Below are positions 6,641 to 64,000 of a DNA stretch of 64,000 bases, piece by piece. Below the pieces are notes generated by a model, which was not told the origin of the DNA, searched no databases, and saw only the letters and a program-made list of their open reading frames with translations. The stretch lies in contig CAWUHX010000087.1 of the NCBI GenBank assembly GCA_963922205.1, positions 62,001-126,000 of the forward strand, read 5' to 3'. Every line of letters starts with the position of its first letter. The first letter of the stretch is position 1. The position numbers and the translations under genes were made by a program. The stretch is from Romanomermis culicivorax (Eukaryota; Nematoda; Enoplea; Mermithida; Mermithidae).

Positions 6641-6649
6641 CTTGCTCAA

Positions 6650-7190: not shown

Positions 7191-8027
7191 TACAACTTTG
7201 AATCAGAACAACACTACTGCTATAGTCAATGTTGTTGAAACAAGGGCCAAATCCAGGCAAAAACTGGCTCCACCACCACAAAATGACGTGGAGGTCCCCC
7301 AAATGCTGGATGAAGAGAAAATCTTAGACCCATCCAACTTGGCAAACCAAGACCAATGGCCATTCATGCAGCACCAAATTGCTGATGCCCAGAAAGTTGA
7401 CCCTACGCTTGATCAAACCCCCAGAAAGTGGAAAATCAGGTAAAAGGTTTTTATACTCTTTATAATATCCTACATGAAGAAGGTTCTAAAGGTGAACCAG
7501 ATCAAATTGTTTTTCCTCAGCCTTTAAGAAAAATAGCCTTACACCATTTTCATGAGTCTAATTTGTTTGGCCACCAAGGCATCAATAAGTTTACATTTTT
7601 GGTCAAAAAACACTTCTGGTGGCCAGGCATAGAGCAAGACATCCAGAATTAAGTAATATCATGTGACATCTGCCAAAAACTATGAAAGACTGTCAACCAT
7701 CTCCACCCCTATGCCCAATCTAACTGATTGCCCCGTTTAATATCATTGCATCTGGCATTGTCAACATTTCCAACATTTCTGAGAAAATTCCCTACCTAAT
7801 CATTTTTCAAGATTATTTCACAAAATACATCAAAGCTGCTCTCATTCCCGATACCTCTGCCGCCAGCATTGTATACACTTTTGTAAGATTAGTTGTGTGT
7901 AGATACCTGACACAGAAACAATTGTTAAGTGACCCCGGATCTGGTTATACATCTAAACTCTTGGGAGGGGTGAAGTGCTAAAAGTAAGGAAGATTCAAAC
8001 CACTGCCTATCACCCACAGTGTCTCAG
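7190..8027 (+). pseudogene. Gypsy integrase remnant
   Basis: After a linker (7190-7430), the H-H-C-C zinc domain is visible (HHFHESNLFGHQG and FWWPGIEQDI at about 7535-7650, then CDICQK in another frame). The core is present only as broken pieces, ending in TTAYHPQ at about 8000-8025, the motif just before the catalytic Glu. The copy breaks off here. Confidence 0.7.
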
Positions 8028-8550: not shown

Positions 8551-8910
8551 TTATTCTTTTATTCCTTTGACATCAGAGGAAACAACATCCAACTTGAACA
8601 TACTCTCCCACGTTGGTGGTGATTTCACCACATCCTCTGGCTCATCCTTTCTAGAGAGAAAGTCAGCCACAGCATTCTGTCTACCTGGCAGGTATTCTAA
8701 CTTGTGGTTGTATTGATTAATGATCACATACCACCATTTCAACTTGTCATTTGTTGTTGTGTTGACTTTCATTGACAACAGTGGTCTGTGATCTGTCTTA
8801 ATCAATACTTTCTGCCCCAATAAATAGTGCCGATTGATTTTGAGGCCATAGATAATCGTGAGGCACTTCCTTTTGGTAGCACACCCTTTTTTCTCATCCT
8901 CTTTAAGCAC
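8551..8910 (-). pseudogene. Gypsy RNase H C-terminal part
   Basis: Continues the RNase H after a short break: CLTIIYGLK (catalytic Glu region altered), LIKTDHRPLL (catalytic Asp), WWYVIINQYNHKLEYLPGRQNAVADFLSR, which is the conserved end of the domain including the final Asp. A linker follows. Confidence 0.8.
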
Positions 8911-8952
8911 TCGGCTATTATATGCTATGACCCACTGATCATCTCCAGACTC

Positions 8953-9898
8953 TTAATTTAGAACAGCTCCTAATGTCGTTCCACTGGCATCAGTTTGAAA
9001 TATGAATTGGGCTGAGCCATCCATTACTGAGTACCTAAGAAATGGAACTGATACAAGTGCTATTTTCAAAGCATTAAATGCTTTGTGATGATCCTCTGTG
9101 ATGAGCCATTTATTCCTTTTCTTGGCCATCAGCTTATACAAAGGCTCTGCAGGCTTTGCCAAATTTGGTATAAATTTTTTACACCATTGGAGCATTCCGA
9201 GAAACCTTTGCATACGCTTGACCGAGTCTAGGAATTCAAACTCCTTTAAAGCCTGCACTTTTTTCAGATCGGGCGAAATTCCTTTAGAATCCAAAATATG
9301 ACCAAGAAAATGAACCTTCTTTGGTAGAAATTCACATTTTTTCGATTTAAGTGTAAGCTGGGCTCGCCTCAGAGAATCAAGGACCAATTTTAAATTTTCT
9401 ATGTGTTCCTTGAACATATTCAAGAACACTATGATATCGTCTATGTATACTAGACATATCTTCCATACATGAGGATGTAGGATTCTTTCCATCATCCTCT
9501 GGAACTCAGCTGGTGCCTTTTTCAGTCCAAAGGGCATTACCTTGAACTGAAACAACCCTTCTTGGCACAAGAAAGCAGTCTTTTCTATACTGCCCTCTTC
9601 CATTGACACTTGCCAATAACCAGACTTGATGTCAAGAGTCATATAAAATTTTGCTCTCAGGAGGCAGTTCAGATAATTCCATTCTGGGTATCTGATATGG
9701 ATCATCCTCTGTGACCTTGTTCAAGCCTCTGAAATCCACAACCAGCCTGAGCGATCCATCCTTCTTCCCTACTAGGAATAATGGTGCCACCCAAGGTGAT
9801 CTGGATGGCTCTTTGACTCCCTTATCCAGCATTTCCTGCACATGTTGTCTGATATATGGTCGCCATTCAATGGCAGCTCTGTAGTAATGCTTCGCCAC
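8953..9898 (-). pseudogene. Gypsy reverse transcriptase, one frameshift
   Basis: 9898-9632 encodes the fingers with LFLVGKKDGSLRLVVDFRGLNKVT. After a frameshift near 9660-9700, 9705-8953 encodes MTLDIKSGYW, FKVMPFGLKKAP, the catalytic YIDDIIVF, FLGH, and the connection and start of RNase H with FIFQTDAS. Catalytic residues are intact. Apart from the shift and a stop at 8953-8955 this is a nearly complete RT. Confidence 0.85.
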
Positions 9899-9948
9899 AG
9901 GACTAGCATCACCTGTGTCAATTTTACAAGTTAGATGGGGAGTGGTTG

Positions 9949-10530
9949 TCAGGGGATCATGAGGTAGGCTATAAATACATCCCAGTATTTCAAAAGTTGC
10001 TGTATCGCCATCTCTTTCTGTTCTTCTGACAAATTATCTTTAGAGGTCATTTTATACAATGCTTCCAGAAACACAACTTCATCGAATTTTGATTCCTTGG
10101 CATCTAAAATACCCTCTAGGCTATTTTCTCCACAATTTTTAGCCTGTAAAATTGAAACATTTGACTCTCCCCTGAATACAGAGTTACAGAAGCCAAGAAC
10201 TTGATGAGGTTCTATCAGACAACCGGAACTGGTATTATTGGAGATTATCAATACAAAGTCTTCCTTTGAACCGTCAACTATAGTATCATCTACTCTGAAT
10301 CTCATTTCTGAATCATCTCCTTCTATGATGATTCCATTTATCCTATTTGCTGAGGATTTGTTCCAAAACTTAGCTTTCACTAGTTGGTCTGTTCCATGTG
10401 GGATGTAAATTCTATTACATGATACCACAGGGACTGGATCTTCCAGCTGCTGGATTGCTGAACTTTGATTTTCTTCAATAGGATTTTCTTCTATTGATTC
10501 TGCTATCATCTTATTATGTGCCCCAACCAT
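9949..10530 (-). pseudogene. Gypsy pol region between protease and RT
   Basis: A 193-codon frame with the features of the post-protease segment of gypsy polyproteins: a PHGTDQLVKAKF-like beta domain, then a long acidic stretch ending YWDVFIAY, which matches the start of the RT region (fly elements have a similar YxDVF). The protease itself is not present; the frame begins near the edge of the copy. Confidence 0.55.
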
Positions 10531-37985: not shown

Positions 37986-39958
37986 TTACAACTTCAGTGA
38001 TGAGGTAACCTTGCTGACCGCAGGTTGGATGACCTGCGTACTAGCAGGTTGCACCGGCAATTTCCGGATATGATAAGCAGTAGGCGGCTTGGCCGGAGCT
38101 TGCACGACTGTAGGCGCTGCCAGAGGCGTCGGCTGCGCCGTAAAACCAGCCAGTACTTGCTCCAGCTGCTTCTGCTGCTGATCTAATCGCGCTTTTTGCT
38201 CCGCAAGCTGTTTAGCGAAAATCTCTTTCTGCCTTTCCATTTCCTTTACAGCTCGCTCCCTGAGCCTTGCTTCAATTTCCTCTATTGTTGGACTTGCAGC
38301 AATCGTTATCAGATTGCTTTCATCCAACATTTGCTCTCCCCTGACATCCATTCCAGAAAGTAGACTCTCTGTCTGATCTAGTAAAGAGGTTACCTGTGCT
38401 TCTTGATCAGGCTGTATCAACGATTCAACAGTGACCTCCTTGTCCACTTCTAAATCGTCTCCTACCTGATTCAAGTCTATGGGGGTGTTGAGGTCTGCAG
38501 GTATCGCTTGTTGCTGTGCTTTCACCGCAACAGGCTCAGCCTGCATCCCCTGCACCTGATCCACACTACTCATATTAACTCCAGATTGTTGACTCACCGT
38601 TGTGCTTACCTCAGTGCCTGTAACCGGCACTGCTGGCTGCTTACCTGTCGGCGTCACTACAACCTTATCGCCAATATGCGTAATTGTGAAACCTGGAGCA
38701 TCGGACGGCAATATCGGCTCGAAAAATGGCGGCTTGTAACCTGGAACGTATTCCTGTTGATACGCTAACACGCTCTTCTTCTGATTCTCCTTCTTTGCGT
38801 CCTCACTCATATCTATTGGGTATCGCAAACCTGGAACTCTGACAGCTATCTGGCGGAAGTAAAACCTCTGATAGCAGTATGGATTATCTTTGTACTGCGG
38901 ACACTCCGCCAAATGCTTCCTCTTATCTTCCGGTCTTTGCTCCCATGACTTTGTCTTGGGCCAAAATCGGATCGGCAAAAATCCGAAACAATTTCCCCAA
39001 CATGTAATCGCATCACCCTTTGTTGGCGTATGCACCTCCGTTACTGGAAGACTATTCAAAAATGATAAGTACTGACTGTACCTTTCTCCCCTCCACAACA
39101 TCTTCAAGAGTTGTTCCTTTCCCTCAGGGCTAAAGAATCTCAAATAGTTATGGTCAAGGAGAGAGGTAAGGTACTCCTCCGCTTCCTCTCTACAAGCTGG
39201 CCAAAATAAATGAAATGTGAGCGGAACTTTGTTACACACTGACTCCAAATTCTTAAAATTGTCCTCAATCAATATTTCAGAATAAGGAGCGATATCCATA
39301 CTCCAGTGTTGTCTTACGTACGAGTCTTTACCATTCGAAACTCTGACTGGTTCATACTCGTGGTAATCAACTTCCAGAGATGTTATCTCCAACAACTGTT
39401 TCCTTTCTTTCCTATACCTTAGGAAATTTTTGTACAAAACCATAGATACGGGTTCATCAAGTCTACTGAAACTCTTCCCTTGATTCACCATATCTACCAC
39501 CTTCTTCCTAATTCGAGTTCTAATCTGCTTTTCCGACAAAGCTTCTTCAAACTCTTCATCCTCACTTACCGTATCGTTACCGTCCACATTCTTACTTTTC
39601 TCCTTGACGGTATAATCAGGATGAATACCTTTAGGTATACTTACTTCTCTCCCTCTCTTCGGATTTGACTCGTAATGAGGGAAGCTGTACTCCGTGTAGC
39701 CTCCAAATGAGGTATCCATTTGGGCAGCCATACGGGCATACACCTCCTGTCTCATCACGTGATAAATAGCCGATGACTGCGGCTCCTCTACTCCTGGACT
39801 TCCACAAAAAGTCTGCGGAAAGTTCTCACCATGTATCATATTAAAAAACCTATACAACCTGAAAGCCATTATCTGAATTTGATCCGCTTTCATCAAATCA
39901 TGCGGAAAATACTGGAATCCGACCTTGACTTCCATAGCTAACTCATAGTGGAAAAACG
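37986..39958 (-). CDS. Exonuclease-like gene, exon C: large C-terminal part with coiled coil and Pro-rich tail
   Basis: 657 codons plus two bases, ending in a TAA at 37986-37988. The acceptor TTTTCCTAG (39968-39959) joins in phase with exon B across a 98-nt intron. An alternative reading is a separate protein starting at an upstream in-frame start, but the phase match favours one gene. The first 90 residues (YELAMEVKVGF, ENFPQTFCG) resemble the helical domain of the frame at 1026-2426. A central region holds cysteines and histidines (CWGNCFGF, CPQYKDNPYC) that could bind zinc, but no standard finger pattern is seen. Then comes a Gln/Val-rich segment, an E/R/K-rich coiled coil (about 38190-38310, ERAVKEMERQKEIF) and a Pro/Ala/Thr-rich tail. 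I do not recognise the family. Confidence 0.7.
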
Positions 39959-40056
39959 CTAGGAAAACCAACAATGAGTAGTAGGCGTTGCTGAATACCT
40001 GATTTCAAACTGCGTTAACGTGTGCCTATAGAATCGCTCACGTTGCGCTCACTGAC

Positions 40057-40704
40057 CGAAATCGATTTGGAAATAACCGATATCCGCCAGATACAGCTCT
40101 GTGAACAATCCTTTCAGCTTAAAAGTCTCCGGGCAAAGTCCCAACTTCCTGGACATTGCCAAAAATCTCCCGTTCAACTGATCTCCTACCTTGGCTACGT
40201 CATAATAACGGCCATACGAAGTCGTTACTCTATGCTTGATCTCCGGTGTTAGATCAACATCCTGGTGCTTTCTACCTGCGCCATTAACATTCCAGATGGC
40301 GACCAGATCTGTAACCAAGTTGTATCCAACGAGAATCATGTCCGAATCTAAGAGCTCATGAATGAGCGTCCATTCCTTCGGCATGATTGTCGTAGTATCT
40401 ACAACAAAGGTGTCTCCAGTTACCGTCGAGAAGCTAATGACTCTCGCGAACTCCTTCCCTTTTGGGTCATCAACCCCAGAAGTCGCGAAAACCTTACTCA
40501 CATACTCTTGAGTAACTTTCTCTGTATCAAGCCCGATAATTGGCTGTCCTCGAAACCTACTCACCTTCAAGGTTTCGATCATTTCAGCCACCTTACCTAT
40601 TTCGACCAATTTTGGTTCCATTAATTCCAACGGAAATCTCCCGAATATCGTGGCAAACCACCGTTCCAATTCGCCGACTCTGACAATGTGCTTGACATTG
40701 TAGT
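40057..40704 (-). CDS. Exonuclease-like gene, exon B: DEDD-type 3'-5' exonuclease-like domain
   Basis: The exon runs from acceptor AATTTTTTAG (ending 40705) to donor G|GTCAGT at 40056. It reads PIIGLDTEKV (Exo I, D-x-E), a hydrophobic strand after FVVDTTT, then LVGYNLVTDLVAIW (Exo II, N-x(3)-D) and YYDVAKVGDQLN...FKLKGLF. The last part aligns by pattern with the region before Exo III of WRN/EXD2/RNase D-type nucleases. The fourth metal-binding residue and the Exo III YxxxD are not evident, so activity is doubtful. Such domains trim RNA or DNA 3' ends; the substrate here is unknown. The frame also stays open to an ATG at 40717, but the strong acceptor and phase match at 40705 argue that this Met is intronic. 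Confidence 0.7.
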
Positions 40705-41409
40705 CTAAAAAATTCATACGGAATGTTTACAACTTTTTAATGGAAATCTTTCTAAGCGGACAAACATCGGTTAAATTCTACCTTCACCACAGATAGTAAG
40801 CACAAATAGGAAAAAAGAAAAAGGAAAATTGCAAGCAGGGGACAATAAGGTACCAAACATATATTGGGTTAGTGTTGGCAGATAGTTAAACACAAGTGCG
40901 GCCCCGACTTCTACCTTATACGGGAGTACACGCACAGACCACCTGCATCTTCCATCATTCGACTGCTAGCCGTCTCAATCCAACGCCCAAAACGGCCTAT
41001 CCAACTAATAAATTAAGAATTTCCAAGAAGAAATTTAAAATATATTTACTAATTTACCCAAAATGTGGAAATTCGTATAAAATTAAGTAAAGATGGAATT
41101 TAGAAATTTAAATAAATTTGAAATTATCTACCCCTAGTCGACTAGTTGCTACGCTCCACTTCTTCCCCATCACATAGACGAATTTATTCAACTCGCTATG
41201 TGTGTAGAGGAATGATTTAGTTTCGCAAAAAGTCCAAATTTTGCGCTACGGGCAGCTTTGCCACACTTTTTCAAGTTGACAGAACAATTTTGTTCCCACT
41301 AAAATTTTACAATTGTCTAGGCCTTCATCTAGACACCCGTGGGCTATAACATCCTGCTTTGCCCAAATAATTCTTAGATTAACTAAGTTTAAAAACTTAG
41401 GTCGCTTAC

Positions 41410-48432: not shown

Positions 48433-49218
48433 TGTCACGTGCCGCTCAATTCTCCAACGTCACGTGATCCCGATCATGCCGACATTTCGTTATTTTTCAT
48501 GTTTTGTTTATTACCCGATCATGCTTTTGTTTATTTCATTTTTACACATGCATTTTACGTTCGTTTTTTATATTTTTCATGCATTTCTATGTTTCGTTTT
48601 GTTGTATTTTTATTTCTTTACAAACGCGGGCTACAGTAGGCCCTTTAGCTAAAAACTTCCGCCAGTCGTGCTCCACGAGCACATGGCTATTTTTGGTGCG
48701 CTCACGCACCTCTTATCATCAAAAATTAGCGTCGTTTTTGTTACGCAAAACGACTAGCTAAGAAGTTTTAGCTAAAGACGTTCATATGCTTAGCATAGGC
48801 ACTGCAGCCGGCCTCAGTGCTAAACGCATGTGAATGAAAAAATGTCTATGTGCTCATAGGCATCTTCTGCATCGCGTCTAGCTGCAGAAGTTAGCTCGAG
48901 CGCCGAGAAACTCCGCCCAAGCTGCAGCTGTAGCCAAACATGTCCTTAAAAGGACATGTTTCTTTAGTTTTTCGCTCATTCTTGGGTTCACCAAGCTTTC
49001 GTCCAGTTGTCACTCCGCGTCCGCCGCCTCCTCGTCAAATTTGCATAATTTTATTATATACCTGTGCGTCCGCCGCCTTACTATCAATAAATTTGCATAA
49101 ACTTACTTGTGTTCACTGCGCCCGCCGCCTAACGTCTACAGTACCCCGCTGCCCATCAGTGCCAGGTGTCCGACCGCCCCGGTTCGTGAATTAAACGTTG
49201 GAGTTTCGCCTCCCGCTC
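48433..49218 (+). repeat. 5' LTR (minimum extent)
   Basis: Starts TGTCACGTG and matches 63215-64000 base for base except at least one T/C difference (49109 against 63891). It probably extends past 49218, but its end cannot be fixed because the 3' copy is cut off. It contains three tandem (C/T)GCG(T/C)CCGCCGCCT units (about 49018, 49067 and 49119) and an AATAAA at 49086. The primer-binding site could not be identified. Confidence 0.9.
49086..49091 (+). promoter_or_regulatory. Possible polyadenylation signal in the LTR
   Basis: AATAAA within the 5' LTR, repeated at 63868-63873 in the 3' LTR, where it would act. No downstream evidence is available. Confidence 0.35.
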
Positions 49219-49899
49219 GCTCCCGCTCCCTCCCGCTCGCCGCCGCTCGCCGCCGCTCGCCGCCTAGGACGTTTGAGGATCGCATCCCCCGCTCCCAGTG
49301 CCAGAAGACCGAAAGCATCCAGGGACTTGCCGCCCGTTGCGTCGTAATCGCTTGAGAAACAGGACTAGGTGAGTCTTCTCAGGGGATTATTGTTATTTGT
49401 GGGTTATTTGTTGGGAGATCCTTCTTAAGTCGGTTTCCCAAGGTTTCCACAGATAAGTAGGGCCTCCACCTCTCAGGTTCGGGCTAAAAGGGGCTGTCTG
49501 GTTCATAATCGGGTCCCATAACTTAGGTCATTTTACGGGTGACCCCGTCCCCACTCTCACTGAGTAGGACTCGGGGATTGTCGCACCTAGCCTGGCAGCG
49601 TTGTCCATTACCCTACAGCAAGACCCCAAGGACAACCCAAGAGAACCAGCTATAGACCTCTCTATAGCCACTAATCGCCAGGTTAGGCCCCCAACGCCAT
49701 TTAGGGAATCCTGGGGAAAATGCCAGTATCCATCAGGAGTCACAGCCTATTACTCACTGTAATAGGATCAATCTGATATGGTTCACCATCAATGTGACGT
49801 CTAAAACACGGTATCACCTGATGAGATACCCAAACCTCCCCAGCTCTCCCAAATCCACATGTCATACACGTGACATGGATGGCGCAATATGTGACATGG

Positions 49900-50270
49900 C
49901 GAGGCTGGAAAATCGACCTTAAGTCTAGCACTCGCCCTTAAGTGTAAAACTTTACCCTTGGGTCGGATCTACCCCCAGGTCGGGTCAACTCCCATTTTAA
50001 GTCGGACAAGCCCCCTTAAAATTGGGCACTAGCCATCCAATAAGTCGGAGACCCCCCAAATTCGGGTTTACTGCCTAATGGGTCGGGAATGCCCCTTATT
50101 TCGGATTACCGCTACTGTAGGTCGGATACCCCCACCTCACGTCGCGTGTTATTACTGTAGTCGGAAATTTTTTCCCGTGCCACCGAGAGTTATTACTGTA
50201 GGTCGGGAATTTATCCCTGAACATCAAATTTAATTACTGTAAGACGGGATTTGCCCTTACGAGTGATCTA
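49900..50270 (+). repeat. Degenerate GTCGG repeat array in the leader
   Basis: About ten copies of a unit near 35-45 bp containing (G/A)GTCGG(A/G) followed by CCCC; the later units carry TTACTGTAGGTCGGGA. Confidence 0.55.
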
Positions 50271-50902
50271 AATGTGATCTATATGTGTAAATAACTATCT
50301 CATGCGTGTGTATTATCCCCTATGAGCAATAAATTCCCCTCTGAGTCGAGTTATTTATCCCCAGAGTCGCGTTATTTGTCCCAGAGTTGAGTTATATATC
50401 GAGTATCTGTATTTCTCCTCTGATTAATTCTGTACATTCTGCATACTTAATCTGTGTTGTAAAGTACCTTATCTGTTTTCGTTTCCCTTATTCCCCCCCT
50501 CTTCCCCTAATCCTGGGTGGTATACTGTAGCCCTCCGGGTGGGTGCCATTACAGTACGCCTGTGCCCATTCCCGTACTGTAACTACAGTATACCCATACG
50601 CGGGTACTGGTATCACAGCTGTAGGGGTTTACGGCCTCTCCTGACTGTTGGTGGTCCTTGACCCCATGATACAGTACACCCTCCCCGTATGATTCTGGAC
50701 GTCATACGTGGCTGCGATTTGTTAATTGTGTACAGTCTTTTTGTATGTCGGCGGAAACTGTCGGAATTGCTCACTTTTCCGGCCCCAAAAACAATTTTAC
50801 ACCGACTGTTTACACCTTTAACACGCGTATGCCCAAATCCCGTATTCCCCGTCTTCGGTTATTTTCCTTTCCCTTTTCCTTTCTCGGTCAGCTGAGCGGT
50901 GT

Positions 50903-50903
<1 letters not shown>

Positions 50904-50959
<56 letters not shown>
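50904..50959 (+). repeat. Homopolymer of 56 A residues
   Basis: An uninterrupted A run followed by six T, inside the leader. It could be a captured poly(A) tail or an assembly artefact. Confidence 0.9.
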
Positions 50960-50963
<4 letters not shown>

Positions 50964-51099
50964 TTCTGTTTTTCGGATGCCACCGCTACAGTATGACACC
51001 CTTACATAAGTTTCTCTCTTCTTCATTTCTACTTACTGTAAGGTCTGTTTCTTCTACCTTCCGGTTGTTGCATCTAGACCATAGACTTTACGGGTCATG

Positions 51100-51810
51100 T
51101 TCTTTGACGTCAGCAACAACAACGTTACGGGTTGTTGTTGTTGTGTGGTTCAGCCTCACGGATGCAACCACTAACGTCTGCAACAGCCGCTTCACTTGCT
51201 GTTGCTTTAAGGGGTGGGTAGCCCTCCGGGTTCTACTCCTGACGTCAGCAACCGACACTACGTGTTGTTGTTCAAGTTAACACTCCAGCAGTAATGACTT
51301 CTGACGTCTGCAACAGGTGAAGCCAACGTTGTTGCAACAGGTTCGGCTGGTTCTCTGCACCCCATCTGTGACGTCAGCAATGGTGACGCACCGTGTCACT
51401 ATTCGAAGATGTGCAGGTCTTACGGGTGCCACATCTGACGTCTGCAACAACTGCATCTCATGTCATTGACCAAAGGTATCAGACCCTCAGTTCCACCTTT
51501 TGGCGTCAGCAACGGCACCATCACGTGTTGCTGTACACCGATAGCTGGCTTCAGGGCCCTATTGCTGACATCAGCAATGACAACGTATCATGCTCTCGCA
51601 GCAGGAATTGAGGTTACATGATCCTATTTCTGACGTCTGCAACGGTAACATTACGTGCTACTGCAGGGGTTTGCTGGCCTTAGGCACTCACCCCTGGCGT
51701 CTGCAACTGCGACGTGATACTTGAATACTCTTATCCCAGGCACCTGCAGTCAGCACCAAGGTTATGTGTTGGTCCATACCCCCTACCTTCTGACGTCCGC
51801 ACCAGGTTAC
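51100..51810 (+). repeat. Tandem array of about 65-bp units with TGACGTC(A/T)GCAAC cores
   Basis: Cores occur near 51105, 51170, 51240, 51302, 51367, 51435, 51500, 51567, 51632 and 51694, with weaker ones near 51749 and 51790 and an outlier near 52130. GTCAGCAA and GTCTGCAA versions largely alternate. TGACGTCA is the CREB/ATF consensus, so an enhancer role is possible. Confidence 0.7.
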
Positions 51811-53579
51811 TGTCGGCCCTATGAGTGTTCCACTTGAGTTGTAGGTGGTCGCTGGCGCATGGTCCTATCACCTACCTCTCTTGTTCAAGGGTTGTGTGTG
51901 TCTGGGGGCTGATGCCTGGGAAACATCAGTCCACATACATACACCACCTGAGATGCTCACTAGCCTACGTACTGATCAGGTTGTCCGCCCGGGTAGCGGC
52001 ACTGTTGATCAGTATGTGGCTGTTTTCAAGCTTTAACTGCAGGTTTGAACGAGTTACACTCGGCCTCAGCTGGGTTGGTTGCTTGACTCGTGCAGACGAT
52101 AGGCAATTGCAGTCGGCACTGCCTGTGTCTGACGTCTGCAAGGGTTCGGCAATCTTCTTGTAAATTTCTTATCTAAATTCACTCATTCTCTTTCATCTCA
52201 TCGAGCTGTCATACATAGATCTTCTTTAGTGTCCCCACCGTAGTGGTTCCCAAGGGACCGCGGCACAGCCTCCGGTTGGGCCTAGAGTGTATAGGACCCC
52301 CTGTCATATTTCTCTCACTCGAACGCCTTCGTTAACTGGCTTAACGATGCCCGCGCTAGAGTCGCCACTGACCCAGAGTCCGCCTCCGCGGTCTACCCTT
52401 TATTAGTCATGTAAATAATAGGCACCGTTGAGTCCGCCTCAGCGAAGGTATTGAGTACGCCTCGATACATACTTTACACTCATATTCAATCAGGGACACC
52501 TTGTACCCGTGATCCCTTAGATGTTTTCGGGTGCGCCCTCAAAACATCCAGAGATTTCATTTTAACTGACTGAGTGTGTCAGAATAGCACCCTTGGTACC
52601 CGTGCTCCTTCCCTCTTCTACTGTGTGACCTGCGAACCTCACTTCATCTCAGTGATCGGCAAACCCGGCCACCAGCTGTGTATAATACTCCTGGAGAGTG
52701 TCCGTTCTGTTCGGAACGCGGGCTCCCGTTCCGGACACGGCTGTAAGTTATTTGCGAATGTCGTCCAGCACGGAACCTCCTGTATAGTCCGTCTCACTAT
52801 GCAGAGATCGCAATCGCTCCTGGCGAGTGAGGCCCGTTGCGTAACTGCGCGACCCCTTTGCGTAACTGGGTTTGTAAATTAGTTTTGTCCCTATTTATTG
52901 CTCCCTCTTAAGTTCATTTTTCAGTTGACCCCGTCCTTTTTACCTTATGCCACTTTATGCGCTACTCCTGGTGAGTAGGACCTTGCCGGCTACGAGTCCG
53001 CCTCGCCCCAAGGTTTGTAAACTAGTACAGCGGTCGAACCTCCAGGAAAAATCCCTCCTGAGCGGGTTCATCCGTCACCTTATTTCTCGGCAGGAAAAAC
53101 CGCCTCTTCTCTCCTTTCTACATGATCTTCTGTCCTCTTCACCTATTCTAATTGCCGGGTCCAGGCCCCAAATTCTACATTTTGGTCGGGATCGATTCCC
53201 TATATCTCAAGCCATGCCTCTGTCCATCACGGGCGACCAGATAAATTCCCTTCTGCGTCACCCTGATGTACTCTGATCTTACATCTTATAATCCTATTCC
53301 ATTCTAGCTCCCTTTCCGTGATCGCTAGTCTTAAGCTAAGTCAATTTACGTCTTAAACGCCGTCGCACACGCGTTTTCCCGAATTCACGCGCTCTTTCGC
53401 CGCGAATTCAAAAGTAGTACTCACTTTCATTTTTCACGATAGAGACACCCCGTCGTTCCTGTCGTCTCAGTACCCAGCCTGTACAGACCAGTGAGCCGCT
53501 CTCTATTCAATTTGACTTAATTGCTTCACGGGCAAGGACGTCTGTTCTAACCACCTTACGGGAAAACGAACCCTCGGAC

Positions 53580-55330
53580 ATGAAGTCGGAAACTGATCTC
53601 CCTTCACAGATCGAGAACAAGGTCCAGGCAGCATTTGAGAATGCTCTTGGACCCCTCAACCAAAAGTTAGAGGCCATGAATGGTCGGAGGCACCCTCCCG
53701 TGTCCAGCTTTATGGCCCCTCCCACCTTCTCCGGTGCTTTTGGTGAGTCTATCACCGATTTTATGTCGCATCTTACTCGTTTCTTTACACTCCAGGGTGT
53801 AAGCGAAACGGATCATGCGTATAAAATCGCCTTTCTGGAGTCATGCCTCACAGGTCCTGCTCTCGCCTCCTACCGGGACTTTAGCAGCAGCACTCCAATA
53901 CCTACCCGCTACGAAGAGTTTACGGCTTTTCTACGGAGAGATTTTCCGGTAGGGCGCGACTCTGATCTGCATCAGCAGCTGATCCAAGATCGACTGCAGA
54001 AGCCGACAGAGTCCGCGATAGTCTACCTTGAGCACCTCAAGAGACTATCCAGGGTAGCGTATCCAGATCTCGCGACGGATGTCCGAGATTCTATCATCAA
54101 ACCTATCTTTCTGCGGGGACTGAAGCCGGTCCTCCGAGATAGTATCAAGTTTAGGGAGTTCACGACTCTTGAAGAGACACTCAAGGCAGCCTGTTACGCA
54201 GAATCCCAAATCTTTCGGGACGAGATCCGGTACACTGCTCCATCTAACGCCGTTTTCTCTTCAGAACCTAAACACGCCGGATATAATCCCGATATGCCTA
54301 ACAGAAGCGCAAACGGTCGTCAGAGCAACGCTCCAACGTCGTCATCCTCCGCCGATGAGGTTCGCCGCTTGAAACAGGAAATGGCCAGGCTCACGGCCCA
54401 CGTAGTGAAGCTCACGGCCCAGCAACGTGCACCCGCGCCAATCCAACAGATGCCGCCTCCACAGCCGTCGACACCAAATCAGTCCGTCGGGCGACGCTCG
54501 TCGGGAGCACACCTTCAAACGTGCTCCTTCCACGGACTGTGTACACATAGCGACGCCGACTGCCGGGCCCAGCGTCCCACCGGTGCCGCCCCCGGTAACA
54601 ACGCCGCTAACGGTGGTCGCTGTTATTTTTGCCGTACACGTGCCCACCCCACGGACGGATGTGATAGGCCATGCCCTCATTGTCGTCAAGTGCGAGTGCA
54701 CCGATCAACTGCCTGTCCGCAGCGCAATCCGGCAAACACGGGTGAGAATGTCTACCAAAATACTGGTTATTCTTCCCAGGGGACAAATGTGTATCATCAA
54801 AGAAATGGTTATCACCCTCCCAACGGGACAGGAAACCATTATCGGCAGCCCATACGCCGCAACAACGCCGTTGGGGCTACCGATGGCCCTCCTCATCCAG
54901 ATCCTCTTGACCTGGATGATGAGGCACTTGCTGAACACCTGACAGATTCTTCACAACAGTGTTATCCTGTCTGCGTAATCAGTATTGGATTTTCAGTGGT
55001 CCAAGCAGCCCAGGTACCCGTACCGATGAACGTATCGGACATACCGCTGCCACCACCACCACCAAAGTATGCGATGCCGGTCACTCTGGACCCCTCGACG
55101 ACACCGCAGTTTGTTGGCCACGCTAACATCCTCGCATCGTATCGCATACCTAAACTCAAGACTGCCGAGTCAACTCCAGCCGCGAATACGACGCCTTCGG
55201 CGCCACCGGCCCGCACCGTCCCTCCAGGACCACCGCCTTCGATCCCCACGGATTCGGCTACGGAAGTCCTCGACCAGGTCGAGCCCATGAATTTGTCAGG
55301 TATACTACCTTCTTCTTCAGGTGATCCTAG
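53580..55330 (+). other. Gag domain: capsid-like region, zinc knuckles, Pro-rich late region
   Basis: Residues about 45-220 match the retrotransposon Gag capsid pattern ([20 protein letters not shown], then LLTGPA-like and an LRRDFP..DLHQQL helix series). Zinc knuckles of C-x2-C-x4-H-x4-C (348-361) and C-x2-C-x5-H-x4-C (365-379) follow, preceded by an additional Cys/His cluster at about 314-327. A Pro-rich stretch with PPPPPPKY (a PPxY late-domain motif, which recruits NEDD4-type ligases for budding) lies at about 55045-55070. The role is particle assembly and RNA packaging. Confidence 0.85.
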
Positions 55331-58300
55331 AGTAGGAACCAGGAATCTCTCCCAGTCCACGACTCTATTGATTTCTTGTTCACAGCGCCATCGCCCGTCC
55401 AAGACGCGATGTTGGCCATCTGGTCAGTCGACCTGGCCAAGAAATACCCGCATTTGCCGTGGACTCTCCTCAACGAGCCATCAAATGTCGAAGCGCTCAC
55501 GGCCGCCGACGTCGTGCTTGCAGCACCCGTCTCGATGCGCCTATTACGACCCGACGTCGCCCGCCGGGCACTCGAGTTCATTGCCAATGGGACTATCACC
55601 ATCTCGCCCGTCGAGAAGTTCTTATTGGACGGGGAGCCATCCTCGCCTTCAGTCGATGCCGTCCGCCGAGCAGTCGAACAGGCTAGTCGGATCCTCCTGC
55701 CTGCTGCCGCCGCTACATCACCGGCAGCAGCACCACCTGTTGCCGCGACATCGCCAACTAAAATGGACATTACTGCTTCCTCGCCCCCGGCCAAGGAACC
55801 CGCAAATGATCCTACACCGCCGGCAACAGCCCAGATCAAATCGCCGGCACCAGCCCAAACGACATCTCCGACCGCCGCGACCAAGTCGCCCGTCGTCGAA
55901 CCCATGGCCGTCGACGAGACCTTACGTCCAGTTAATGAGGATGTCAGCATTGTTGAAACATCACCGTTCCCAACGGCAGTCAACCCACGGTCGCCGAAAG
56001 TCGGTACCCTTCGGGAAATCCTCCCCAGCGGTGAATTGGTCCTCGATTTCCCCGACCAGGAACCAATCTCGTCCGACAGCGACGAAGAAGAAATCTGACA
56101 CTGCCCCTCAGGCCAGATTTGTGAAATTGAGTGAACACTTACAAATTACGTTTGTACAGTTGTTTTTGACAATAAAATTGACCTTGGTAGCATCACTGTT
56201 TCTAGGGGTGAGTTTGTCAGCACCGGCGGCTCAGTATCAATTTTGCGGTCTCTCAAGAAGCGGACATCCACTTGAGTTACCCCAGCGTGTAGAGTGTAAA
56301 CCACCGCAACCTTCATGGAGCCCGCGGCGCATGAATGTTACGGTGTATGTCCCTAGCTCAGACCCGATTACAACCACAGCGTGGAAATGCACATTGCGCT
56401 CCCGCAAAGTCTGCACCAACACTGGTTTCTTCGGCTCTAGGGGCATCACTGCAGACGTCATCACCACTCAGCACTTAGCGCCTGCGGCATGCACGCTAGC
56501 ACATCGCACTAAGATGTTTGGTTCACAAAAACTTGTCGGCATTCGCCCTGGCTTTTATAGCACCAACCAAACATTGGAAGTGATGTACGAATGGTGCTGC
56601 AGCGACGTCTGCAAGACAGTGACTAACCTTTTCATCGAAGAGGGACAAGTCGCTTCGTGGGACGGCACTACGGCCCTAAGCACCTTAGGCGATGTAGGTG
56701 GATGCAGTCCCACTGCAGGTCAGTGCACTACCCTAGACAGGGTCATTGTCTGGCCTGCACAAAACTTCACGGCGCGGTGTCATTATCACCCCAAGGGAAA
56801 TTACACTGCGTCCATGTCAGGGAACCACGTCATCATCGATGATCTGCAGGTTGCCCTCAAGATCCCGGGAAACTCCCGTGTCTTCCAACTGTGCCCAGAA
56901 CTACGTTCCACCACAGTCCGGACGGATCAGGGTCTTCTCCTTCGCATCCACGGGAGATACAATTTGACCCAAACCATGTTCAGAGTGGCAACGGACAGCC
57001 GTCCCGATCCTGTCAATGCCAAACTGAACTATCTGGCTCAGCAGATCAAGGAGTCGGAAATTAACGGTTTCCGGTTCACGTGGCTTGAGCTTTGCTCTCA
57101 CGCTCAACGCTATCTTGATCTGACTTGGCAGTTGCTTCGCTTCGACCCTACCCTGGGTGCCCGGGCATTCCTCCAGAGGAATGACCTGACGGCGGAATTC
57201 ACAGGCGATGCGCTGACAATATGGCCGTGTCAGAAGGTCAACGCCACCTACGTTTACCATTCGTACCGGGTGGGGAACGTTTGCTACAAGTACTTACCTG
57301 TACAGGTTGGCGGCACCATCTACTTCGCCACCCCCGGTGGCCCGGATCTCATTAAATCTAGCCCAATTGTGCCGTGTCATCACCACTTTACGGGGATTTT
57401 CCGAAATCGCTCGGGCTGGTTTACTGAGTCTGGCGCGGTCCATGTGAGCCACATCCCACTGGAACTCTTCTGGAAGCAGCGCTTCAACATCACTCACTTT
57501 GAGGCACCGGCGCTCTTCCATGACCAGTTGGCGATGACCCCTTCAAACTTTGCCTTCTTTAAACAGTACGTTTACAAGACTGAGCAAACTGAAGCGGTAC
57601 TCAACCGGCTGGTGAACTTTACCGCTGGTCTATCCCTGCAACCAGACGCCATCTACCAGGCCTTTGCAGGGGTAGGAACCGACATCAAGGCCTCTCTGGA
57701 AGGTGTCGGTTTGGCAGCAAACCATGTTATTACGGGTCAAGAGCACACCCTCGCCCAGGGCTTGCATGCTGTCCTGAGCGGGCCGGTCCAGTTGATCTTT
57801 AACATCCTAATTACCCTGACAGTGCTGATCGGTGCCGGATACCTTGCCTATCTTGGTGTATCTTATTATCTCAGCTACCGTCTGCGGAGCAAACAGGTCA
57901 GGTTTGTTAGCCGTTTCTCCCCGTTGGGTCTTTACCGCAAAGTCCAACGCTGGGTCGGTTTTCACTACGTGCAAAACGATGTGCCCTCCCAGCTTGACCG
58001 GATCACACCGTGCTTCGTCGTGCTGCTGGACACCAAGGAAACTCCTGCTTTCCTTGACACGGGGTGCCCACGCACTATCATTAGCCAACGCCTTCATAAG
58101 GCCTTGGCTAAAGAAAGTCCGAAGGCGGTCATGGCGTTCCAGCAACATCACGACTTTAACCCATTGATGAGCATCAATGGTAAAGCCGTTCATACCATCC
58201 TTTCGGGACCATATGAAATCATGTTGCCCGGAAACCGCCAGCCGAACACACGGATCGATGTACATCTCCATGTGTGCAAGACTACGTCTCCCTTCTGGGC

Positions 58301-61300
58301 ACCTGTTGACCTCATACTCGGACTGGACTTCTTAGAACAGTTCAAGAACATTATGTTTGACTACCAACGTAATGTTTGTCGGCTGGACGCGGTAGAATTA
58401 CCCCTCCTGCTGACCACGCCGGAGATTGACCAGATCGACCCCTGGTGGGAGAACACCCGTGCTCTCTCGCGAAACTCACACAGGTCGGGATCACGATCGC
58501 GGTCCAGGGCTTCGTCCATCTCTCGGCCACACTCACGGGCCTCCTCAGTTGCCTCATCACGTGGGTCAACTAGGGGATCCCGGGCCTCTTCTAGACGGGC
58601 AAGTCGTCATCTGTCGACCTTGCACGGGTCAGGTTGCCCTCGACCTCCGCCTGGAACCTCTCCAGTAACGCTAGAGAAGGGCCGATACCGTGAGCCAAGT
58701 GATTCAGATGCTCCGACATCACCCGTGCCAAACGCGCCTCCGCTATCGGACACCGAGGTTGAATCACTAGGAGCTACTCAGAGTCCGAAGGATCACTCAG
58801 ACCACATACTAACAGTACAGGATGAGTCCACCCTTCTGAATGACCCGGAACCCTCCGTCGGATACGCTCTAGTAGGCCTCCTACGTCGTACGGGACTGCC
58901 GATTCCAAAGCGGTCCGGTAAGACCAAACATGTTAGTGGTGCCACCACACCTGATTCCGGTCATGTGGTCACGGCTTTTTACCCAAATGATATTCGGACA
59001 CCCCATATCAAAGTTCTCCTCAACAACTGGGTAGAAGCCAAGGCACTGGTCGACACAGGAGCTGTTTGCTCACTCTTGGACCACGAGTTAGCGGCCCAGC
59101 TGCCCAACTTGTCACTATCACCAACCAGGGCACGCCCTATCGCAGCCAACGGGTCCCCGATCCCACTGCTAGGAGCAGCCTACATCACAGTTACAGTGGC
59201 TGATGTCTCTGAACGGATTCAGGTCCAGATACAGGAGAACTGTTCAGCTGAACTGGTCCTCGGAACCAATTTCCTCGGCCGGTTCAATTGTGTCAGTTTG
59301 AACTGGGAGAAATCTTTCCTCCAGTTCAAAGAGAGTAGAATCCCCTGTGACGGTCTCATCCACAGCCCACCTTCTGCCCGCGGCGCTTTGCCCCTGAAGG
59401 ACTTGGTGATTCTAGAGCCTCGCTCCATGACACGATTCACTGTACCTGTCCCACCAATCTATACGAACGTGCCTGAGGTGGCCTTCTTTCCGAAGAACCT
59501 CACCGGGTCTCAACGACACGTATATTTTGCAGGAAGCGTCAGTACCGTGACCAACGGTCACATACCGCTTCAGGTGGTCAACCCGAGTACTCACTCCGTG
59601 GTTCTCTACCCGCACACGACCATCGGTCATGTGCAAATGCATAGTGAGCCCTCACGGGAATCACCGGTCGACTCAGACACCGTCCTCGATCGTCAGTGGG
59701 TCGAGGCCAATGCTGTGATCTCACCGGACATCTCCCCCCGGGACCGGGCAGCCTTACTCGATCTACTGGTTGCATACACCGACCTTTATGCTCTTGATGA
59801 AAAGGACACAGGTTCCACTGATCTCGTCCAGCACGAAATCAGCACGGGTGATGCCCGCCCAGTCCGCCGTTTTCCTTACCGGTCCTCACCTAAGGAAAAG
59901 GATCTCATCATGCAGGAGGTCAAGGCGCTCCAGGAGAAAGGTATTATTCGGCCCAGCACGTCTCCGTGGGCTACTAATACTGTCCTGGTGCGCAAGAAAA
60001 ACGGTTCTCACCGTATGTGTGTTGACTTTCGTGGTCTTAACGAGGTCACGAAAAAGGATGTCTACCCCCTCCCACGGATAGATGACATCCTCGACACACT
60101 CAAGGGTATGAAGTATTTCACTACCCTTGACCAGGCTAACGCTTATTGGTCAATCCCGATTGCCGAGGCCGATAAGGAGAAGACGGCTTTTAATACGCCT
60201 ATTGGACTATACGAATTCAATTATTTGCCTTTCGGTTTATGCAACGCGCCAGGGACATTTCAACGCCTTATGGACCTCCTCCTTACTGGAATCCAATGGC
60301 GCACGGTTCTGACTTATCTCGACGACATTTTGGTGTTCGGGAACTCTCACACCCAAATGCTTGAGCGCCTGGCAGGTGTGTTCGCCCGTCTTCGCCAGGG
60401 TGGAATGAAGCTCAGACTGAGCAAGTGCAAATTTTCGCACTCAGAGGTAGAGTACCTAGGCTATCGCATCTCACAGAGCGGCCTAGAACCTGACCAAGCC
60501 AAGCTGGCCGCCGTCCAAAACCTACCCATTCCACACAACGCCAAAGACATCAAGTCCTTCCTAGGCCTCGTGTCTTACTACCGGCGTTTCATCCCTGGTT
60601 GTGCCCGGCTCAGCGAGCCACTCACCAAGCTCTTACGGAAGGAAACTACTTTCCAGTGGTCAAAACCTCAGCAGGAGGCGTTCGATGAACTCCGCCGCCT
60701 GCTGACCAACCCTCCTATCCTGCGCCATCCGGACTTTTCGAAATCCTTTATCCTTCAAACTGATGCGAGTATTTCGGGGATAGGAGCGGTTCTTAGCCAG
60801 TTAGACGAAAATGGATACGACCATCCTGTCGCGTACGCCAGCCGAGGGTTAACAGCGGCCGAGAAAAACTACTCCATTACAGAACTGGAGACTCTCGCTG
60901 TTGTCCATTTCGTCAAGCACTTTCGACCATACCTCTTCCAGCACGAGGTGGTCGTCCAGACTGACCATACCGCGGTCAAAGCAGTGTTGGAGAAGCCTAA
61001 CCCCTCTGCTCGGATCGCTCGGTGGGGACTCGCGCTCGCCGAATTCAAACTGACAATTCGGCCGCGAAAAGGTCAGTCTAATGGTAATGCTGACGCATTA
61101 TCACGCCTGCCGGATCCTAACTCCCTCACCGGTCAGAGTATTGATGATACTCCCCTTTACAGACCTGAGGGGCACGTTATGATGATCACCGATGGTGCGC
61201 AGCACCCGGCGCGATCCAGGACCTTGACCGATGGTGTGCAGCACCTGGCGCGTTCAAGTAATTCAGCACCGATCACTGTTGGCGCGGAGCGCCCGGTACG

Positions 61301-62696
61301 ATCAGAGTCTTATGCCGAGATATCCGTCGGTGCGCAGCACCCCGACCTTTTCGCTGCTCAGCTGGAGGATCCGGAGTTAGCCGACATCATTCGATCTCTT
61401 AAGCCTCTGGGCGACCAGAATGATGTGCGAGGCTACCATCTGTTGGATAACGTCCTTCAGAAATGGACAGGCGAGTCCAATAAGATCGTCATACCCAGAT
61501 CCATGGTTCCTACCATTATCCGGGCTCATCACGATGACATCTTAGCTGGACATTTCGGTGCTAAACGTACTGCGCGGCTCATTGCTCGTAGATACCACTG
61601 GCCCTCCCTCAGTCGGGATGTCAAGTCCTTCTGTCAGCGGTGTGATCTTTGCCAACGGAATAAGCCCGCTCGACAGAAAACCACTGCGACCCTGAAACCT
61701 ATCACCATCACGGGACCGTTTCACCGGGTAGGTGTCGACTGCATGGGACCAATGACCACTAGCGAAGCTGGCAACCGTTTCATCGTAGTCTTTATCGACT
61801 ACTTTACGAAATGGGTCGAGGCTTTTGCTACTCCGGACATCACTGCGCACACCATAGCCCGGCTGTTTGTAACGCAAATTGTCTGCCGGCACGGGGCACC
61901 GCAGATTCTTCAGTCCGATCGTGGCACTGATTTCACATCAAAACTGATGACTGAAATCACTGCGATCTGCGCAACGAAGAAACTCCACTCTACCGCCTAT
62001 CACCCGATGACCAACGGCGAAGTGGAAAGAGCTAATCAGACGCTAGCCACACCGCTACGTATGTATGTTCATCAAGGACATACTGATTGGGATGAACACC
62101 TACCATACGCTGTGTTTGCCGTCAATATCAGCATGAATGAGTCAACAGGGTACTCGCCCTTTGAACTCATGTACGGTCGCACACCCATGCTCCCTGTTGA
62201 CGCCGCGCTCTCATTCAACCCTCCGGCCCATATCATTAATGTTTCCTCATATGATATGGAGGTCAAACGTCATTTCACGAATGCGTTAACCTTAATCCAG
62301 AGTCGGATTGAGAAAGCACAGGAAGCCTATGCACGGTCGTACGACCGGAGGGCACATGATGTCTCGTACAAAGTGGGGGATCAGGTGCTCAAACTGCGCA
62401 CCTCCAGCAAACGTGGACTCACTCCTAAATTGCTGCCCATCTACGATGGACCCTACCTTGTAACAAGTGTGGCATATCCCAATGTCACACTTCGTCTCGA
62501 GATGGATCAGGAAGACACTGTACATGTCAACCAGCTTCGACTTTACGTGTCCCCTGAACAACCGAGTGAAGCAGAGGATACACCTCCCACTTCACAGGCA
62601 ACGGATTCGGCACCCTTATTGTATCCATCAATAAGCCGGGACTTTACACCGAATCCGATTGACCCACATCTTGATGCAGAGGTCCCCGACCCGTAA
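53580..62696 (+). CDS. Gag-Env-Pol polyprotein (3038 codons)
   Basis: One uninterrupted frame from ATG 53580 to TAA 62694-62696. Domain order by residue: Gag 1-about 580 with two CCHC-type zinc knuckles (348-361 and 365-379) and a PPxY-type motif near 494-497; a poorly protein-like stretch 585-850 where another frame is coding; signal-like hydrophobic segment 858-880; ectodomain to about 1400; transmembrane segment about 1403-1432; retropepsin-like domain 1 (D1493); RS-rich linker 1630-1680; retropepsin-like domain 2 (D1825); RT with YLDD at 2246-2249; RNase H (D2395); integrase HHCC about 2651-2693 and D2720/D2780/E2816. All catalytic residues seen are intact. An Env-like module normally lies after pol, so its place between Gag and Pol is exceptional. 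Whether the whole frame is translated as one chain, or parts come from spliced RNAs, is not shown by the sequence. Confidence 0.85.
55331..56098 (+). CDS. Overlapping frame: helical domain, Pro/Ala-rich linker, acidic tail
   Basis: In the frame one base back from gag, open from just after a TAG at 55328-55330 to a TGA at 56096-56098. It encodes about 255 residues with ordinary protein composition: a well-formed 85-residue helical region ([28 protein letters not shown]), a Pro/Ala/Thr linker and an acidic end (DSDEEEI). The gag/pol frame over the same bases gives a Ser/Arg/Pro/His-rich string without structure, so this frame looks like the selected one. There is no ATG at its start. A -1 shift or splicing from gag is needed (AG acceptors lie at 55319-55320 and 55329-55330), or it starts at an internal Met. 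It is either the true Gag C-terminus or an accessory protein. Confidence 0.65.
56151..57965 (+). other. Env-like membrane glycoprotein module
   Basis: Starts with a hydrophobic signal-like segment with a plausible cleavage after SLSA (about 56220). An ectodomain of about 520 residues follows, with at least 15 cysteines (including a WCC pair) and nine N-x-S/T sequons. Then comes a hydrophobic transmembrane segment (about 57786-57875) and a short basic tail (YRLRSKQ). This is the build of a class I or class III viral glycoprotein. I cannot identify which virus group it derives from; no furin-type site or fusion peptide was certain. The signal segment has no Met before it in frame, so it is made as an internal signal of the polyprotein or from a spliced RNA. 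Confidence 0.75.
57990..58390 (+). other. Retropepsin-like domain 1
   Basis: [12 protein letters not shown] (catalytic Asp 1493) and the partner LILGLDFL motif at about residue 1578 are both present, so the fold looks complete. It directly follows the membrane segment and tail of the Env-like module, which would place it on the cytosolic side. Confidence 0.7.
58465..58615 (+). other. RS-repeat linker between the two proteases
   Basis: Residues about 1630-1680 are a run of SR/RS/RAS dipeptides like those of splicing-factor RS domains. Its function here is unknown. Confidence 0.7.
59010..59290 (+). other. Retropepsin-like domain 2
   Basis: [12 protein letters not shown] (catalytic Asp 1825) and LVLGTNFL at about 1892 mark a second complete aspartic protease domain, directly upstream of RT in the usual gypsy position. 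Confidence 0.8.
59820..60650 (+). other. Reverse transcriptase domain
   Basis: Motifs in order: [67 protein letters not shown] (2246-2249), [14 protein letters not shown] and [14 protein letters not shown]. All catalytic residues are intact, which supports recent activity. Confidence 0.92.
60690..61115 (+). other. RNase H domain
   Basis: [16 protein letters not shown] (D2395), [10 protein letters not shown] (catalytic Glu), VQTDHTAVK (Asp) and [10 protein letters not shown] at the end. Complete. Confidence 0.9.
61185..61345 (+). other. Imperfect GAQHPARS repeats in the RNase H-integrase linker
   Basis: Four copies of a (D/V)G(A/V)(Q/E)(H/R)(P/L)(A/V)RS-like unit, spaced about 13-17 residues apart; the last is truncated to VGAQHPD. 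Confidence 0.65.
61350..62500 (+). other. Integrase: HHCC zinc domain, DD35E core, C-terminal GPY-like domain
   Basis: Zinc domain around 61530-61660 (HH, then C-x2-C in CQRCDLC). Core: D2720 (GVDCMGP), D2780 (QSDRGTDF) and E2816 (NGEVERANQ), with 35 residues between the second D and E. The YDGPYLV motif near 62440 is the GPY/F-type module of gypsy integrases. No chromodomain seen. Confidence 0.9.
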
Positions 62697-63214
62697 CTCA
62701 GGATGCACTCTCTTCATTGTCCCCGCTTACGGACGAGGACGTCCTTTTTCGAAGGACCGCCGTGCCCCTCACGAAGTATCCACTCTTGTCCATGCTGGAT
62801 CTTAGTGGATAGAAGAGAGCGTTCAGCAACCTAAGCGTCACGCCTTAGGCGCATCCTCACGCGATAGCCTACACCTCTCAGGGTGCATCCTCTGCGATAG
62901 CCCGACAATCTGTACCTCACTGGGTGCATCCTCTGCGATAGCCTACATCTTGCCCTGAAAATTTTTCTTTTCTGTGTTCTAGACCTTCGCACAGGATATT
63001 CAATGTCGGCTACTCCACGCATAAACAACCTCCGGTCACCATACCACCGAACGAATTACGATCAAAGAAGGCCTCATCCACCGACAACCCAACGGACCTA
63101 TTCGACCACTCTCGCCGTCACACCCTGGAATGACCTACGACCACGGACACGCCGCATAAAACCTCACTACTGACCACTGCAAGGACGAGGACGCCCTTTT
63201 TCGAAGGACCGCCG
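62697..63214 (+). other. 3' untranslated region with short repeats
   Basis: Contains three GCATCCTC.(C/G)CGATAGCC units of about 40 bp (62850-62950). A direct repeat of about 33 bp (62731-62764 and 63183-63216) is also present; its second copy runs into the first two bases of the 3' LTR. No clean polypurine tract is seen next to the LTR, only AAGGACGAGGACG. Confidence 0.6.
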
Positions 63215-64000
63215 TGTCACGTGCCGCTCAATTCTCCAACGTCACGTGATCCCGATCATGCCGACATTTCGTTATTTTTCATGTTTTGTTTATTACCCGA
63301 TCATGCTTTTGTTTATTTCATTTTTACACATGCATTTTACGTTCGTTTTTTATATTTTTCATGCATTTCTATGTTTCGTTTTGTTGTATTTTTATTTCTT
63401 TACAAACGCGGGCTACAGTAGGCCCTTTAGCTAAAAACTTCCGCCAGTCGTGCTCCACGAGCACATGGCTATTTTTGGTGCGCTCACGCACCTCTTATCA
63501 TCAAAAATTAGCGTCGTTTTTGTTACGCAAAACGACTAGCTAAGAAGTTTTAGCTAAAGACGTTCATATGCTTAGCATAGGCACTGCAGCCGGCCTCAGT
63601 GCTAAACGCATGTGAATGAAAAAATGTCTATGTGCTCATAGGCATCTTCTGCATCGCGTCTAGCTGCAGAAGTTAGCTCGAGCGCCGAGAAACTCCGCCC
63701 AAGCTGCAGCTGTAGCCAAACATGTCCTTAAAAGGACATGTTTCTTTAGTTTTTCGCTCATTCTTGGGTTCACCAAGCTTTCGTCCAGTTGTCACTCCGC
63801 GTCCGCCGCCTCCTCGTCAAATTTGCATAATTTTATTATATACCTGTGCGTCCGCCGCCTTACTATCAATAAATTTGCATAAACTTACTCGTGTTCACTG
63901 CGCCCGCCGCCTAACGTCTACAGTACCCCGCTGCCCATCAGTGCCAGGTGTCCGACCGCCCCGGTTCGTGAATTAAACGTTGGAGTTTCGCCTCCCGCTC
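63215..64000 (+). repeat. 3' LTR, cut by the window end
   Basis: Starts TGTCACGTG and repeats 48433-49218. The window ends inside it. Confidence 0.9.

Follow-up and report, generated by a model that had tools for sequence, protein, structure and literature searches.

Several described retroelements pair a retrotransposon polyprotein with a glycoprotein of viral type, and they form the background for a long terminal repeat (LTR) element that we analyzed in a 64,000-nucleotide stretch of Romanomermis culicivorax DNA (GenBank assembly GCA_963922205.1, contig CAWUHX010000087.1, positions 62,001 to 126,000; hereafter 'the window'). The comparisons that follow draw on excerpts of the cited papers. 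Dingle, from the annelid Dimorphilus, resembles the window's element in having a Ty3/gypsy Pol together with an envelope (Env) protein similar to herpesvirus gB, but its Env-like protein is encoded downstream of integrase (PMC7854359). Atlas virus, a hookworm member of the Belpaoviridae, likewise has a single uninterrupted polyprotein and an Env akin to one from a different type of virus, and differs in its Gag-Pol-Env order, its class II Gc-like Env and its belpaovirus Pol (PMC9094657). The mosquito element Anakin carries a glycoprotein related to chuvirus glycoproteins (PMC7642597), and the env of Tas, from Ascaris, has been termed weakly similar to gB (PMC9094657); both differ from the present element in their BEL/Pao Pol (PMC7642597). 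In Roo, Tas and Cer-7, the envelope-like protein lies downstream of the polyprotein (PMC7642597), and the sources of these proteins are given differently by PMC7642597 and PMC9094657. Cer1 of Caenorhabditis elegans, also a Ty3/gypsy element, runs from gag into pol without an intervening stop and makes an additional protein from a spliced RNA; its extra open reading frame (ORF), which encodes the C-terminal half of CERV, follows pol, is not Env-like and acts in RNA export (PMC10309623). Bdelloid elements have an ORF3 after pol, which in one lineage encodes a paramyxovirus-type fusion protein (PMC5408684), and Troyka is described as encoding no envelope (PMC12440569). Errantiviruses and the envelope-carrying Ty3/gypsy elements of metazoans also join Ty3/gypsy sequences to an Env (PMC12859917, PMC13172572), and Env-carrying Ty3/gypsy elements are said to be widespread in animals (Chary and Hayashi 2025, as cited in PMC12859917 and PMC13172572).

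In the R. culicivorax element, the glycoprotein lies inside the polyprotein frame. When separate pieces of the 53580-62696 product, rather than the whole chain, were compared with Pfam, the domains followed one another in the order Gag, Env, protease (PR), reverse transcriptase (RT), RNase H (RH) and integrase (IN) (Table 1). The capsid match scored 30.7 bits against a cut-off of 29.1, identifying a Ty3-type capsid, and the PR-RT-RNase H-IN order, with Ty3-type domains and a GPY/F motif, is that of Ty3/gypsy (Metaviridae). We classify it as a Metaviridae-like LTR element of the Ty3/gypsy type. Its arrangement is not that of errantiviruses, in which env is a third ORF after pol, since Env here precedes PR; nor is it an Atlas-like member of the Belpaoviridae, since the Pfam models that its Pol pieces match are Ty3-type and its Env is internal. 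The LTRs (48433-49218 against 63215-64000) are identical at 785 of 786 bases, with one mismatch, and this near-identity and the intact main frame make a recent insertion probable. An earlier note on this DNA had proposed such recent activity, together with an Env-like module placed between Gag and protease in one uninterrupted frame. Both the intact frame with near-identical LTRs and the position of the module hold, the latter here and in all three relatives that span Gag to integrase (see below). The uninterrupted frame holds for the DNA, with 3038 codons free of stops, but translation may follow a different course, as an overlapping −1 frame is the more coding-like one at 55331-56098.

Protein searches, in which the 7996 candidates sharing most words were scored, found nine relatives in the databases (P0006-P0014), and pieces of the window served as blastp queries to establish their layout. 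The order Gag, Env, RT-RNase H, IN recurs in three of the three relatives that extend from Gag to integrase (P0009, P0010 and P0011), which come from three separate sources (lgn, ncbi and jgi); PR was located between Env and RT by blastp in P0009 and P0011 and by Pfam in P0010. Partial relatives preserve parts of the same order, Gag followed by Env in P0006 and Env followed by PR and RT-RNase H in P0008, and Gag and Env are present in one listed protein in P0006 and P0009-P0011. Pairwise identity within the group is 43-61% for RT, 28-43% for Env and 20-37% for Gag. Because the same order is kept at 30-40% Env identity, the layout is old and common to the lineage, and not a recent rearrangement. 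In our preferred reading, the element is a member of an old lineage with a class III glycoprotein between Gag and protease in its main frame. Five scans of viral_contigs, two with Env and one each with RT, P0011 and P0008, found no relative. In a small, weakly supported RT tree of five lineage members and one other RT from the window, the latter groups beside P0010 (support 76); the Env and RT trees are too small and too weakly supported to show a single capture. P0009 additionally contains, at residues 500-555, an RNA recognition motif (PF00076, E 6.2e-7) placed after the zinc knuckles of Gag and before Env.

The Env module was identified by three kinds of comparison. The segment 56151-57965 matches the Pfam family Monjiviricetes_fusion (PF24664) above its cut-off (E 1.9e-14), with a weaker match to bornavirus G that falls below its own cut-off (E 6.9e-4), and a profile of seven Env proteins matches human cytomegalovirus (HCMV) gB with E 2.1e-7. 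With the predicted structure as a Foldseek query, the best 50 matches listed were all herpesvirus glycoproteins, 48 of them titled gB, with a best E of 2.5e-19. Env contains 16 cysteines and nine N-glycosylation motifs, and the seven-member alignment has 25 invariant columns, 12 of them cysteine, all inside the stretch spanned by its shortest member. The fold, the profile match and the combination of a signal, a Cys-rich ectodomain and a single C-terminal anchor (this last from hydropathy, in the window only) are those of a class III fusion glycoprotein, and we conclude that Env is, on its profile matches and modelled fold, a class III fusion glycoprotein of the gB/Monjiviricetes type. The identification as Env-like put forward in the earlier note is therefore supported by the family match, the profile and the predicted fold, and two of the checks it had suggested, a profile search of 56151-57965 and a structure prediction, pointed to viral fusion glycoproteins, gB predominating among the listed fold matches.

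Hydropathy (15-residue mean, cut 1.8) placed a signal-like segment before Env and an anchor after its ectodomain (Table 1), with one weaker peak in the Gag and Env pieces at residues 463-477 and no peak above the cut in the PR and RT-IN pieces. A hydrophobic stretch lies before Env, no more than 60 residues from its first cysteine, in six of the seven proteins compared (the window's and P0006-P0011). In the window, the nearest in-frame ATG is 73 codons upstream of the most hydrophobic part of this segment, and the nearest methionine is 64, 25, 47, 60 and 4 residues upstream of the corresponding segment in P0006, P0007, P0009, P0010 and P0011, respectively, P0009 having additional methionines closer to Env. 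These distances make a separate Env start unlikely in some members and possible in others.

We believe that the best overall explanation (with a probability of about 0.68) is an old Ty3/gypsy lineage with an internal class III Env and a membrane-threaded Gag-Env-Pol polyprotein, alongside a Gag-only alternative. Translation of full-length RNA would yield Gag-Env-Pol; its internal hydrophobic segment would direct Env into the endoplasmic reticulum, and signal peptidase would free Env from Gag. The anchor would then halt transfer, such that only Env would be luminal and PR-RT-RH-IN would remain cytosolic on the Env tail, and the element's protease would later separate the parts. Alphavirus and flavivirus polyproteins provide an analogy for such membrane threading and cleavage. 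Pol would enter the particle attached to the Env tail, or after being released later by the protease near Gag, and Env would confer fusion of particle and cell. As an alternative outcome, a switch to the −1 frame near 55331, by splicing or frameshifting, would lead to termination at 56098 and produce Gag without Env-Pol. The more specific proposal, that Pol is packaged through Env and not as Gag-Pol, and that a Gag-only product arises by leaving frame 0 for a −1 frame ending just before Env, is tentative, and we regard it as possible rather than probable.

Several observations weigh against this explanation. Env stands alone in P0007, P0012, P0013 and P0014, and the relatives are known as proteins alone, which makes introns possible in their genes. 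The listed sequence of P0008 starts at Env and has no signal-like segment, so a linkage to Gag is not demonstrated for this protein; the segment before Env is weak in P0011 (1.79) and lies about 58 residues from the first Env cysteine in P0009, and some relatives possibly use an Env start of their own. The Env model has a mean predicted local distance difference test (pLDDT) score of 63.6 and a predicted template modelling (TM) score of 0.34 (an earlier model from three sequences, with a mean pLDDT of 35.1, was set aside). The TM score to gB is only about 0.4, with a root-mean-square deviation of 19 in the best row, and the VIA-align rows mostly span model residues 24-444, which leaves the C-terminal part barely tested. 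Topology, cleavage and fusion are all predicted.

A further group of observations on the same side concerns 55331-56098, where the −1 frame overlaps the linker between Gag and Env and ends about 50 bases upstream of the Env signal. In a residue-composition test whose windows overlap, some of them reaching into the tested stretch, and whose off-frame frequencies derive from the ORF under test, the −1 frame scored 0.008, which is within the true-frame range (30 overlapping windows, mean 0.002) and exceeds all 60 off-frame windows (maximum −0.037), and frame 0 scored −0.175, under the lowest true window (−0.147). A −1-frame value of 0.011 is our own reading of an out-of-register line. The composition of the −1 frame is coding-like in both halves. 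A frame-0 stretch near 58400, rich in Ser and Arg, reaches equally low values in shorter windows of this test; it is low in codon log-odds too, which are therefore not decisive alone. The chance of frame 0 staying open across 55331-56098 is 0.0003 with the element's codon usage, 0.001 after codon shuffling and 0.036 with local codon usage, and that of the −1 frame staying open given the frame-0 protein is 0.00015. The openness of both frames and their scores together hint at two uses of this stretch; straight frame-0 translation may not be the main path, and Gag-only and Gag-Env-Pol products may diverge here. No canonical −1 slippery heptamer was found in 55200-56095. Neither the −1 product (best E 0.12) nor the frame-0 linker (best E 1.1) matched the relatives convincingly by blastp, and the −1 product has no Pfam match.

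The strongest alternative accepts the layout as real and assigns Gag, Env and Pol to separate mRNAs produced by splicing, in the manner of retroviruses and Cer1. Excision of a small intron would let Gag terminate at 56098 in the −1 frame, leaving the frame-0 linker as a by-product, and Env would come from an RNA in which a Gag exon, or the start of the leader, is joined to the Env region. The coding-like −1 frame agrees with this, as does Cer1, whose CERV protein comes from a spliced mRNA that includes one exon read in a different frame (PMC10309623). With an untrained matrix of the nematode splice-site consensus, no intron leading from frame 0 into the −1 frame had both sites scoring above 2; without a score cut, suitably placed in-register introns run from donors 55321 and 55300 (ranks 16 and 31 of 483) to acceptor 55385 (rank 77 of 477), with lengths of 65 and 86 nt. 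The same matrix ranked donor 49369, inside the LTR, and acceptor 52924 highest in 48800-53600, a pair that fits a spliced leader and makes a large leader intron possible. Against these points, acceptor 55385 is weak (−2.1) under an untrained consensus, the openness of frame 0 would be left to chance (0.0003-0.036), and in four relatives a single listed protein contains both Gag and Env. We consider separate messages a substantial possibility, if short of an even chance. As a separate observation made post hoc, a donor-like site at 54742 shares its frame with four of the ORF's five best acceptor-like sites (54996, 55320, 57669 and 59532), which may be chance.

The overlap could also reflect a compensating pair of indels, either in this copy or in its assembly, the linker having once been coded in the present −1 frame and frame 0 being open by luck. 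Coding-like composition in both halves of the −1 frame and the lack of linker homology between relatives would suit such a history, which nevertheless requires two indels as well as a frame open by chance, and the acidic tail and stop of the −1 frame look natural; we think it unlikely. Less probable still is that Env is a defunct passenger or serves a role other than entry, such as intracellular membrane targeting, given that the cysteines, glycosylation motifs, signal-like segment and anchor have all been retained and that the invariant columns persist across the seven proteins. Finally, this copy might be a singular rearrangement of an element with the normal Gag-Pol-Env order, or an assembly chimera. 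This reading would agree with env following pol in the compared described elements of known layout, Dingle among them (PMC7854359), and was rejected as very improbable because the relatives P0009-P0011, from their three sources, keep the internal order, so that the normally placed env which the earlier note had said might turn up elsewhere, leaving this copy a rearrangement, does not appear among them.

An additional retropepsin-like domain precedes the conserved protease in the window (Table 1). It had no counterpart in P0008-P0011 in blastp searches with the PR piece, which aligned solely from residue 344 onward, corresponding to the second protease domain; the two proteases in tandem could pair within a single chain. 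At the 5′ end of the element, an inverted repeat of the first nine bases of the LTR, unique within the window, occurs at 49875 and is followed by TGG. The 5′ LTR very probably ends there, which gives an LTR of 1443 bp and a leader of about 3.7 kb.

Table 1. Features of the R. culicivorax element, in window coordinates
Feature	Position	Strand	Basis or remark
5′ LTR, TGTCACGTG...CACGTGACA	48433..49875	+	match to 3′ LTR; 3′ end from inverted repeat
Candidate primer-binding site, starts TGG	49876..49893	+	adjoins inferred LTR end
Long leader upstream of ATG	49876..53579	+	
Single open frame Gag-Env-PR-RT-RH-IN	53580..62696	+	3038 codons from ATG, stop-free
Gag capsid domain, Ty3_capsid PF19259	53748..54194	+	Pfam E 2.7e-7
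Nucleocapsid-type Cys/His motifs, the second CCHC	54522..54662	+	motif scan
Overlapping −1 frame, 255 codons, acidic tail then TGA; frame 0 an Arg/Ser/Pro-rich linker	55331..56098	+	
Internal signal-like hydrophobic segment before Env	56145..56228	+	hydropathy, residues 856-883
Predicted Env ectodomain, class III (gB-like)	56229..57767	+	Pfam core match 57012-57449, profile, predicted fold
Predicted Env membrane anchor, then basic segment	57768..57860	+	hydropathy, residues 1397-1427; sequence
Extra retropepsin-like domain, DTG motif	57966..58430	+	weak Pfam E 0.0038, below cut-off
Conserved aspartyl protease PF13975	59013..59282	+	Pfam E 4.7e-11 and blastp
Reverse transcriptase, RVT_1, YLDD motif	59985..60470	+	Pfam and motif scan; first residues inferred from profile position
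RNase H, two Pfam models matching	60657..61046	+	Pfam
Integrase zinc-binding domain (H2C2) and core (rve)	61491..62006	+	Pfam and motif scan
GPY/F motif, integrase C-terminus	62448..62456	+	motif scan
3′ LTR, cut by window end	63215..64000	+	match to 5′ LTR

The noncoding parts of the element and the rest of the window contain a few other features. The word CTACAGTA occurs six times in 49219-53579 against 0.13 expected, and is hardly enriched outside the element (one occurrence against 0.34 expected in 1-48432). A run of 56 A occupies 50904-50959, within the same 49219-53579 region, and two adjoining 41-bp direct repeats are found at 62862-62943, downstream of the open frame and ahead of the 3′ LTR. 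Elsewhere there are two other gypsy-type pol fragments, at 5734-8019 (+) and 8575-9976 (−), neither of which had an Env match by tblastn (E 1e-4); ORFs at 8-2426, upstream of the first fragment, have no Pfam match. At 37986-40717 (−), a pair of adjacent ORFs (662 and 222 aa) likewise lacks Pfam matches and lies in a stretch with G+C content above that of its surroundings.

By title or the start of the abstract, we recognised no Gag-Env-Pol element among the literature matches listed, and an earlier description is possible. The Env-bearing elements of known layout among those compared here place env after pol, and an Env inside the polyprotein would be another route to an enveloped particle. 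If this is true, the ratio of Gag, Env and Pol and their packaging become testable in a single element with an intact frame.

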